A stretch of DNA of 64,000 nucleotides from Bacillus sp. 103mf (GTDB taxonomy: Bacteria; Bacillota; Bacilli; Bacillales; Bacillaceae_G). Location: positions 62,001-126,000 of the forward strand of contig NZ_FPAF01000002.1 in NCBI RefSeq assembly GCF_900116295.1. Direction: 5' to 3'. The notes beneath the pieces are model-generated. The model was not told the DNA's origin. It ran no database searches and saw nothing but the letters and a program-made list of their open reading frames with translations. Positions 43,114 through 57,526 of this stretch are shown here, one piece after another (position 1 is the stretch's first letter; every line of letters begins with the position of its first letter). The position numbers and the translations under genes were made by a program.

Positions 43114-43749
43114 TTATTTCTTTTCTGCTACAACACTCTCTATTCTGTTTATAATATTGAATATTCCGTCTTTTTTCATTTTTAAAGATGCTTTGTTTAC
43201 AATTAGACGTGCTGAAATATCACAAACTTCTTCAAATACAAGTAACCCGTTTTCTTTCAGCGTTTGTCCTGTTTCTACAATATCGATGATTGCATCTGCT
43301 AATCCTAACAAAGGAGCAATCTCAACAGAACCTTCTATTTTAATAATCTCTACATCTTCTCCCTTCTTACGAAAATATGCAGAAGTAATATTCGGATACT
43401 TTGTTGCAATTCTCTTTTTGTTATAACCGTTTGAGTGATACGACAAAGTGGAAGCAACACAAATTTTACAACAACCTACCTCTAAATCCACCATTTCATA
43501 TACATCATTCTCATATTCAAGTAAAATATCTTTCCCAACAACACCCATATCTGCTATACCATGCTCGACATATGTTACGACATCCACTGCCTTTACAAGA
43601 ATAAATGAAATGTTTGAGTTCTTACTTCGAAATACGAGCTTTCTTCCTTTATCTTTTAGTTCTCGGCAATCAATACCAATTCGTTCAAACAATGGAATTA
43701 CATGTTTTTCTAGTCTTCCTTTCGTTAACGCAATTTGAATGTTACGCAT
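43114..43749 (-). CDS. hisG: ATP phosphoribosyltransferase, short catalytic subunit
   Basis: 211 residues, the short HisG form lacking the regulatory domain, which needs His[21 protein letters not shown] at the start and [13 protein letters not shown] in the PRPP-binding region. ATG 43749 follows AAAGGAGAATCCTC; it lies 25 bases inside the hisZ end. First committed step of the pathway, and the usual point of feedback. Confidence 0.94.
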
Positions 43750-44987
43750 GAGGATTCTCCTTTTTTCTGCATAATCCATTTCTCTTTCCAAACATACTGG
43801 GTTAAAGTATCTCCTGATACATCAATTACCGTTTTTACATCGAGCGTTCTTGCAAATCGAAATGTATCTTGTAAATTTTCTAACATGGACAGTTCTGCTT
43901 TTACACCATCTTTCCTAAATAAAGTACATAATTTCTCTGCTTCTGAAATCATATCTAACGAATAATATATGAGCGTATCTATTTGTTTTTGATATGAAGT
44001 TTCCTTCCGTTCTTGTAAAGTTCGTACAATTTGATTTACTTGTATTGCTAATCCTACTGCAGATAGAGACTCGCCAAAATTTCCAATGAGTTCATCATAT
44101 CTCCCACCGCTGACAATCTCTTCTCCAATATCACATATATATCCCCGAAAGATTACACCCGTATAATAATGAAGATGTTGAATCATCCCCAAATCAACAG
44201 AAATATACCCACCATACCCAAGACGTTCCATGTTTTCATATATATTTTTGATCCGCGCAATGGCTCGTTTCATCTCTTTACTCACAGTAAGCTTTTCAGC
44301 TTCTTCAATCACTTCTAATCCACCGAATAAACGAGGTAACTTTTGTAATAATTGAACTGTTTCATCTTGCATATCTAACCGCTTTTCTTGTAGAAAATGG
44401 GACAAAGCAGCATAATTTTTACTTTCAATATATTCTCGCAATGTATATTCATCTTCTTCTCGTAAAGATAACTTTTTCACAATAGATTTATAGAGTTCCA
44501 CTTGACCAATTTCAATTTTAAAGGATTGAATACCAACTGATTGCAAGGCGACAATTGTGCTTACAATACATTCAATTTCAGCACGCATATTATCGATACC
44601 GATAATCTCAATTCCAGTTTGTGTAATTTCATTATATTTGCCTGATAAAGATTCATTTGCCCTAAAAATATTTCCACTATAGGTTAATTTCAAAGGAGCT
44701 TCCATTCTTTTTGTTCCGATTACACGAGCTAGTGGAATTGTCATATCAGGTCTAAGAACGAGGATGCGCCCCTCAGAATCAAAAAACTTATACATCTTCT
44801 CCTCGTCAATAGGACGATTTTGAAACGCAAACACATCATAAAACTCAATCATAGGTGTCCGTATTTCTTCATATCCTCTCTCAATAAATGTACGTTTTAA
44901 CCTTTGCTGAGTCTCTTCCATTAACGTACATTCTTGAAACAAAAAATCTCTTGTTCCGTTTGGATTGGCTCGTTTCCATTTTTTCAT
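43725..44987 (-). CDS. hisZ: ATP phosphoribosyltransferase regulatory subunit
   Basis: 420 residues, class II tRNA-synthetase-like fold related to His[35 protein letters not shown] and [14 protein letters not shown]. It lacks the tRNA-binding domain. Forms the active hetero-octamer with HisG. ATG 44987 follows AGAGGTGTGACG; the upstream frame start at 45014 is unsupported. First gene of the his operon, about 230 bases after the attenuator terminator. Confidence 0.92.
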
Positions 44988-45221: not shown

Positions 45222-45262
45222 AAAAAAGAGCTATGTAGATAAAAATACCTACATAGCTCTTT
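45222..45262 (-). terminator. his attenuator terminator
   Basis: On the minus strand AAAGAGCTATGTAG (45262-45249) pairs with CTACATAGCTCTTTTTT (45238-45222). The 14 bp stem and T6 form a strong terminator, whose 5' arm can instead pair with an upstream segment (45276-45268). Confidence 0.9.
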
Positions 45263-45329
45263 GGAGAATGTAGGTACAACAGGAATAACCCTTGTACCTA
45301 CACGTTTTTTCACGCTAGGTTCAAGGGTT
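45246..45329 (-). promoter_or_regulatory. Alternative RNA segments 1-4 of the his attenuator
   Basis: Segment 1 (45329-45316) pairs with segment 2 (45302-45287) at 13 of 14 positions. Segment 2 pairs perfectly with segment 3 (TTGTACCTACA, 45279-45269). Segment 3 (TACCTACAT) pairs perfectly with segment 4 (ATGTAGGTA, 45254-45246), which is part of the terminator's 5' side. This gives mutually exclusive 1:2 + 3:4 (read-through) or 2:3 + terminator states. Confidence 0.85.
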
Positions 45330-45385
45330 TATGTATGATGATGTTGTGTAAATAAAATGACTGATTGGAAAGTAAACATTGTCAT
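45329..45385 (-). CDS. his operon leader peptide
   Basis: Reads MTMFTFQSVILFTQHHHT and stop, 18 residues (or 16 from the second ATG at 45379, which has GGGAG 8 bases upstream). Three consecutive CAT His codons (45343-45335) stand two codons before the stop, and pairing segment 1 begins right at the stop. A ribosome stalled on the His codons would leave segment 1 free; one reaching the stop would cover it. This is the geometry of ribosome-mediated attenuation. Confidence 0.85.
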   Translation of the reverse strand: MTMFTFQSVILFTQHHHT

Positions 45386-45414
45386 TACTCCCTTTCTCCT
45401 CTTAGTTTTAAGTC

Positions 45415-45443
45415 AGTATACTCCCAATAAAACAAAAAGTAAA
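45415..45443 (-). promoter_or_regulatory. SigA promoter of the his leader
   Basis: TTTACT (45443-45438), 17-base spacer, TATACT (45420-45415). Transcription would begin about 25 bases before the leader's ribosome site, so the his operon has its own promoter downstream of leuD. Confidence 0.8.
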
Positions 45444-45459
45444 GAATATTATTTATTTT

Positions 45460-46035
45460 CTAAATTTGTTTCATTTCATATGAAACAATTTCCTGTTCAT
45501 ATTGAAGTGTAACCCCAATATCATCTAAACCTCTTAACAACTTTTCTTTCCACATGTGTTCAATAGAAAAAGAAAAGCTGTGTTCAGGAGTTGTTATCAC
45601 TTCATTCTCTAAATCTATTTCTATTATCGCTTGCGGTGCTACAGACGCAAGTTGCTTACGCACTTCTTTTTTCATAACAATAGGGAGAATTCCATTTTTC
45701 ATACAGTTCATATAAAAAATATCTGCAAAACTTCCTGCAATAATAGCTCGAAATCCGTAATCCGCAAGGGCCCACGGGGCATGTTCTCTAGAAGATCCGC
45801 AACCGAAGTTTTCTCCTGTAATTAAAATCGTAGCTCCTTTTCGCTCAGGAGCGTTCAACGGAAACGCATAGTTTTCTTGACGGTTATTTAAATAACGCCA
45901 TTCATCAAATAAAAACTCTCCAAATCCTGTCCTTTCAATGCGCTTTAAATACTGCTTCGGAATGATTTGATCGGTATCGATATTATCATTCATCAACACT
46001 GCAAATTTCCCTTTATGAATATGAAATGGCTCCAT
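45460..46035 (-). CDS. leuD: 3-isopropylmalate dehydratase, small subunit
   Basis: 191 residues: [15 protein letters not shown] and [17 protein letters not shown] are the swivel-domain signatures. Works with LeuC to isomerise isopropylmalate. Overlaps leuC by 23 bases. Last gene before the his leader. Confidence 0.95.
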
Positions 46036-57292: not shown

Positions 57293-57526
57293 CTATATTT
57301 AACTAACGGGAAAGTAACATATACTGGATGAAAGCCCTACCTCTCTCTCATCATTACGGCTCCAACGACCGCTCCTGATACACTAGTATGTGTATACAGT
57401 TTACAAATACAATCTATCCTATACGTGATCACTAAAGTTGTTGGCATCATCGCCCGATCTTTAGCAAATCAGTGATTTGTATAAGTAAACAATAACCAAT
57501 ATATACTAGCTGTAACCGAGACACGA
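57256..57526 (-). ncRNA. Candidate structured non-coding RNA, about 270 nt
   Basis: A consensus promoter (57533-57561) drives an apparently non-coding region ending at the terminator 57255-57292. Internal stems include CAAATCA/TGATTTG, CTAAAG/CTTTAG enclosing GGGCGATGATGCC, and CGGTCGTTGGAGCCG. No ORF has a ribosome site. A decayed small gene is an alternative, since one frame is nearly open and ends SGAVVGAVMMRER. Confidence 0.5.

Follow-up and report, generated by a model that had tools for sequence, protein, structure and literature searches.

The 64,000-nucleotide stretch of the Bacillus sp. 103mf genome analysed here (NZ_FPAF01000002.1; hereafter the window) carries a leader region at 45443-45222 (the window leader), all parts of which are read from the minus strand and fall between leuD and hisZ. 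The hisZ gene is the first of a his operon, and the genes behind it are presumably hisG and hisD, as recognised from their protein sequences. The leuD gene, which we likewise take to be such from its protein, ends an upstream ilv-leu cluster that itself stands behind a T-box (53557-53330). The features are:

45460..46035, minus strand: leuD (presumed from its protein), end of the upstream ilv-leu cluster
45415..45443, minus strand: promoter-like site TTTACT-17-TATACT, agreeing with 9 of 12 consensus positions
45388..45394, minus strand: Shine-Dalgarno sequence AAGGGAG for the leader peptide, with the conserved ATG 8 nt downstream
45329..45379, minus strand: leader peptide MFTFQSVILFTQHHHT, probably 16 codons, stop codon TAA at 45331-45329, frame ending in QHHHT-stop
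45335..45343, minus strand: putative sensing codons CAT CAT CAT (three His), two codons from the leader stop
45311..45329, minus strand: segment 1, starting at the last base of the leader stop codon; partner, segment 2
45287..45304, minus strand: segment 2; partner, segment 1 or 3
45268..45279, minus strand: segment 3; partner, segment 2 or 4
45246..45254, minus strand: segment 4, within the 5' arm of the terminator; partner, segment 3 (antiterminator) or segment 5 (terminator)
45222..45262, minus strand: predicted intrinsic terminator, a 17-pair stem that covaries and a T run whose last base is 45222
43725..44987, minus strand: hisZ, first gene of the his operon (TIGR00443, 338.8 bits versus a cut-off of 271.65)

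An initial annotation of this DNA had described a histidine attenuator at this site. We found the pairings 2:3 (11/11) and 3:4 (9/9), as well as 1:2, just as described there, and the three CAT codons two codons from the leader stop (45343-45335) were confirmed. The terminator, given as 14 bp, has a stem of 17 pairs. The proposed promoter does lie at 45443-45415, but its match to the consensus is no better than chance (3 sites in 2 kb versus 7.0 expected in shuffles). The reading frame of the leader peptide stood as well, but 16 codons are likelier than the 18 that had been claimed from an alternative upstream ATG at 45385, because relatives conserve the second ATG (45379), located 8 nt from the Shine-Dalgarno sequence; in the aligned leaders of these relatives, a purine-rich sequence is likewise present upstream of the ATG. 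Three CAT codons say little by themselves, since the same 9-base word is present four times in the window. The leader RNA (45408-45222) folds with -61 kcal/mol (z -7.6) and is more stable than 200 of 200 shuffled sequences, and the lowest-energy structure of the complete leader contains the terminator hairpin. Judged by their complementarity, the four RNA segments pair in mutually exclusive ways.

Related leaders were collected with an exact 26-base core pattern, which occurs at three places in the species-genome collection: in Ectobacillus antri (G001), E. panaciterrae (G002) and Bacillus sp. 165 (G003). None of these three places is in front of hisZ; two precede an amino-acid permease and one precedes an orphan frame of 163 amino acids. 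A covariance model (R1) was built from the window leader and these three matches (L001-L003), and a wider model (R2) was used alongside it. We followed 48 loci recovered with R1 and R2 to the gene behind the leader, a non-random sample in which near relatives dominate. This gene was hisZ in 16 cases and a hisS paralogue, complete or cut by the contig end, in 23; a YuiF-type transporter and a permease were found twice each, and hisD once. One further locus (L109), which we retained in the counts as leaderless, showed a partial match to the hisS paralogue and no His leader, and none of these target genes was found behind L015, L016 and L035.

Protein family models support several of the gene assignments. 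The hisS paralogue scored over the PRK12420 cut-off at L071 and L092, and hisD over that of TIGR00069; for hisZ at L086 and L103, TIGR00443 was the best match, yet it stayed below its cut-off. The YuiF-type transporter belongs to a Pfam Na+/H+ antiporter family, its name being given by resemblance and after the accessible text of Ashniev et al. (2022; PMC9413887). Among the permeases, the G003 copy was tested and matched Pfam AA_permease_2, with a basic amino acid/polyamine antiporter subfamily as its best NCBIfam match, under the cut-off; the G002 copy is 78% identical to it. At L110, about 600 bases lie between the leader and the start of the hisS paralogue. The 163-amino-acid protein is encoded directly behind a His leader in both G001 (L067:9426-9917, minus strand) and G005 (L068:679-1170, plus strand); the G001 protein had no Pfam or NCBIfam match, and it is possibly a candidate histidine-related gene.

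The initial annotation had staked its reading on the conservation of the His codons and pairings in relatives, and the reading survived this comparison. Among the 48 related loci, 44 have at least three consecutive His codons, three have two, and one has none; in an alignment of 16 leaders (A4), a His run is present in every row (three codons in 15, two in L019). Alignment cells changed on both sides of a pair numbered, in A4, 25 for helix 1:2 (shuffle mean 10.0), 10 for 2:3 (3.9), 22 for 3:4 (7.0) and 24 for 4:5 (7.9), in each case above all 500 shuffles, with the caveat that kinship alone can let sequences beat such shuffles without any structure. Controls in which the partners were slid preserve kinship, yet they were clearly lower (21-51% of cells paired, versus 86-96% in register), a comparison that favours the structure because it was drawn from one row. 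An alignment of 23 leaders (A5) gave 27, 15, 25 and 30 both-side changed cells for 1:2, 2:3, 3:4 and 4:5, values that were reached in none of 500 shuffles, and 86-91% of cells paired versus 22-55% when slid. When pair types or both-side changed pairs were counted instead, several helices were at chance in A4 and A5. Helix 2:3 pairs poorly in the register of the window in L018, L035, L036 and L037, where by eye a shifted 2:3 pairing runs through CAGG and CCTG. All four helices (1:2, 2:3, 3:4 and 4:5) covary; this covariation, like the anatomy and the conservation, is read directly from the sequences.

We regard the element as very probably a ribosome-mediated transcription attenuator that sets expression of the his operon by the supply of charged tRNA-His. 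This is the reading of the initial annotation, and the conservation of the His run, the covariation and ribosome-masked folding support it, as do the mostly histidine-related genes behind the leaders and the failure to find HisR in 17 leader-bearing genomes; the start site, the behaviour of the ribosome, termination, the response to histidine and the default state are what we infer on this basis. When His-tRNA is short, a ribosome would wait on the first His codons; in this stalled state segment 1 would be free to pair with segment 2, leaving segment 3 to pair with segment 4, and the 3:4 helix would sequester the 5' arm of the terminator and let RNA polymerase continue into hisZ and the genes that follow. 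With ample His-tRNA, the ribosome would reach the stop codon and cover the first half of segment 1. With segment 1 covered, 2:3 would form, segment 4 would be free, and the terminator could form and end transcription near 45222. The leader stop codon is followed by segment 1, so that RNA free of ribosomes should fold like the stalled one, a consequence for the untranslated leader (ON as well) that the initial annotation had not drawn. If true, such logic would be inverted, with antitermination as the default and a ribosome that has finished the peptide and stands at the leader stop as the active OFF signal.

In the ribosome-masked folding, the front edge of the ribosome was set 12 nt past the first base of the A site, and the occupancy of helix 3:4 was computed for the stage before the 3' arm of the terminator is made. 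For the window leader, the occupancy was 0.95 without a ribosome, 0.99, 0.99 and 0.88 with the ribosome at His codons 1 to 3, 0.73 at the Thr codon and 0.12 at the stop codon, values consistent with a ribosome edge at the leader stop. Across 16 leaders, all 16 reached at least 0.78, whether no ribosome was present or its A site held the first His codon, and 14 fell to 0.13 or less at the stop codon; the two exceptions, L035 (0.63) and L019 (0.86), showed no switch. Counting any upstream partner of segment 4 left a weak switch in L015, L018, L035 and L019. As a control that covered six of the 16 leaders, the RNA between the leader stop codon and the terminator was shuffled: the switch in segment 4 occupancy between the first His codon and the stop was matched by 0 of 200 shuffles for the window and for L021, by 1 of 200 for L022 and L036, by 3 of 200 for L014 and by 32 of 200 for L018. 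A cruder, automatic run of the mask gave the three expected states in only 15 of 39 distinct leaders (47 examined), a low yield that is probably due in part to failed terminator finding; this run is noisy, and the conclusions from folding rest on the 16 leaders. A similar computation on E. coli hisL gave 0.01 without a ribosome, 0.69-0.81 at the His codons and 0.80 at the stop. The E. coli his leader is held to be OFF when the ribosome is at its stop codon, and since the computed value contradicts this, we do not trust the folding model for exact states.

With this restriction, the model leads us to favour, with some reserve, a default-ON state of the untranslated leader. It is less likely, though a serious competitor, that the same attenuator is OFF by default in the classical manner and that its terminator forms without translation (super-attenuation); this possibility concerns the default state alone. 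It would agree with the super-attenuated phenotype of start-codon and ribosome-binding-site mutants of the Listeria Rli60 leader, in which ilvD transcription is lowered according to the accessible text of that report (PMC5864092), the reverse of what is predicted for the window leader. The terminator, contained in the lowest-energy structure of the complete leader, could moreover win if 3:4 formed too slowly or were too weak. Against it stand the high ribosome-free 3:4 occupancies in the window and in all 16 leaders, compared with the near-zero value computed for the E. coli hisL terminator arm; in these predictions E. coli his is OFF by default and the window leader ON. In the S. aureus ilv leader, a nonsense mutation that arose under selection was interpreted as relieving repression, as far as the text at hand describes it (PMC5794164). 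Removal of the leader start codon would separate default-ON from default-OFF attenuators.

We consider it very improbable that the hairpin is a bare terminator that ends leftover ilv-leu transcripts, with an incidental small frame and no sensing of histidine. In favour of it, no minus-strand terminator-like site was found between leuD and the his leader (45460-45222), whereas by eye two relatives without the leader (L045, L046) have a hairpin followed by T behind leuD. However, the His run and the leader frame are conserved, the overlapping alternative helices covary, and the genes behind related leaders are mostly histidine genes. With no such site on the minus strand between the two, readthrough coming from the ilv-leu genes may also be gated by the attenuator. 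Slimmer still are the chances that histidine or tRNA is sensed directly, by a riboswitch, a T-box or a protein-binding leader, and that the peptide is an accessory: the link between segments 2 and 3 (TATTCCTGTT-like) seems by eye more conserved than a loop requires, but the ribosome-edge geometry at the stop codon fits the masked folding, and no Rfam family reached its gathering score in the window leader or in nine related loci, all matches at permissive E-values being far below the families' own cut-offs. In particular, the T-box model (RF00230) had no match in the window leader, in keeping with the absence of a T-box signature reported initially, and the nearest T-box in Rfam is the one in front of the ilv-leu cluster. 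The lack of an Rfam match, the conserved His run and the covariation led us to reject the T-box, riboswitch and bare-terminator readings in favour of ribosome-mediated attenuation.

Whether such an element had been described before was left open initially; it has been, in outline. Naville and Gautheret (2010; PMC2965389) predicted a His leader peptide in front of hisZ and hisS* in bacilli, and the accessible text agrees with our findings in the target genes, in the short ORF that contains a run of His codons and is accompanied by a premature terminator, and in the similarity of the sequences before hisZ and the hisS paralogue; the segment model, covariation, transporters, hisD and the default state do not appear in that text. 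For the B. cereus group, Eubacteriales and Erysipelotrichales, Ashniev et al. (2022; PMC9413887) predicted, in the portion available, that his operons are preceded by candidate RNA attenuators, likewise with a His leader peptide, a terminator and an antiterminator. Among the Bacillales, that portion lists attenuators in six species of the B. cereus group, a group reported there to lack HisR, and holds the B. cereus attenuator to be independently acquired; its table names his operons only as attenuator targets, and its section 10 mentions a his operon and/or transporter with a T-box and/or attenuator in other families. Compared with that account, one covariance model here also covers two further genomes (G108, G130), hisS paralogues and transporters. 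No other study of these leaders, and no experiment on them, was found among the titles and abstract beginnings of the open-licence literature; the single match for Ectobacillus deals, to judge by its title, with a different topic.

The window leader has the features of a Bacilli his leader, i.e., an ORF with at least three His codons, a terminator and an alternative antiterminator in front of hisZ. It shares with E. coli hisL (RF00514) a leader peptide with a His run, mutually exclusive hairpins and an intrinsic terminator, and the RF00514 covariance model had no match to it. The Listeria Rli60 (PMC5864092) and S. aureus ilv (PMC5794164) leaders, as presented in the accessible texts, are also cases of ribosome-mediated attenuation in Firmicutes, for other amino acids. 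The class of mechanism is hence not new, His leaders having already been predicted in bacilli and the B. cereus group; what is added here is an apparently wider leader family and its predicted default-ON logic, and covariation now supports a Gram-positive attenuator class that, in the accessible texts of PMC2965389 and PMC9413887, was only predicted. Our data suggest a range beyond the six B. cereus-group species reported among the Bacillales, and a common origin for several of the Bacilli his leaders. That all of them form one homologous, mobile Bacilli RNA family with hisZ, hisS-paralogue, hisD and transporter targets, inverted logic and no match in our Rfam 15 scans is about an even bet.

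At E <= 1e-4, R2 had matches in 23 of 398 genomes sampled from the class and 18 of 397 from the order, overlapping sets that also overlap with the 39 genomes of the G354 family, 22 of which matched. In this family, 21 of the 22 matching loci are His leaders before the hisS paralogue, and L109 is degenerate. Eighteen of 21 positive genomes scored at E below 1e-17, the other three (G022, G027 and G032) belonging to the weak matches dropped as described below; G241, from the class sample, reached 46 bits. The genomes G108 (2.6 Mb) and G130 (2.2 Mb) each have a leader that is followed by hisZ and then by a hisG-like frame, and no further match was found in their families (1 of 2 and 1 of 5 genomes matched). 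Weak matches in which no His leader was seen (L020, L023, L031, L034, L077-L079) were dropped. On leaders already recovered, antisense matches were dropped as were antisense matches that R1 and R2 also gave on these leaders themselves, which we attribute to near-symmetric hairpins and because of which alignment A3 was left unused.

Several individual loci deserve mention. At L056 (G017), a hisS-like gene is, by eye, preceded by a leader with three His codons; this leader was missed by R2 and is outside the counts. G019 has two hisZ leaders (L080, L029), the second of which stands before another hisZ-hisG pair and reads His-Asp-His-His. L035 (G002), with its weak folding switch, precedes a very short frame and an alpha/beta hydrolase-like gene. 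L019, without a switch in folding, has two consecutive His codons before hisD in G055, a genome with HisR.

Homologous leaders do occur in genomes of presumed B. cereus-group type, the group that the initial annotation had proposed for comparison, but the host itself appears closer to Ectobacillus. The HisZ protein encoded in the window shares 67-69% identity with its best counterparts in G001 (E. antri), G002 (E. panaciterrae), G004 and G005, 53% to that of G007, and 27-30% to those of G006, G013, G017 and G018, genomes that we read as B. cereus-group type; the best HisZ match in G003, at 25%, is not a close one. Ectobacillus thus provides the nearest relatives found, and to judge from these sequences the host does not look like a member of the B. 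cereus group. R1 recovered the hisZ leaders of genomes read as B. cereus type at about 24-31 bits, and the window leader is, by sequence comparison, homologous to them, the group of these genomes being a presumption. The leaders most similar to it precede permeases (L014, 81%; L017, 80%), followed by L015 (74%), five B. cereus-type hisZ leaders (57-60%) and those of G108 and G130 (54-55%). R1 found no leader at the hisZ locus of G001, G002, G004, G005 and G007. Because the leader is missing at hisZ in close relatives and its nearest kin stand before permeases, the element seems either to have shifted to the his operon in the lineage of the window or to have disappeared from it in others.

HisR (TIGR02531) was found in 12 of 30 genomes tested and not found in 18, among them the Ectobacillus-type genomes G001-G005 and G007. 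Seventeen of these 18 carry the leader, G004 being the one that does not. Two of the 12 genomes with HisR (G017, G055) also carry it, so that replacement of HisR by the leader is not strict. An inverted repeat, CTTTCGTTTCGAAAG, is found shortly before the hisZ start at L045 and L044 (G002 and G004), where the his operon is leaderless; as HisR was not found in either genome, another regulator may bind it.

Elsewhere on the minus strand of the window, Rfam places a lysine riboswitch at 31950-31768, two SAM riboswitches at 29977-29869 and 16603-16498, and a second T-box at 22581-22337. The plus strand has a match to the BsrC small RNA family at 57320-57398 (44.3 bits, just over the gathering score of 38).
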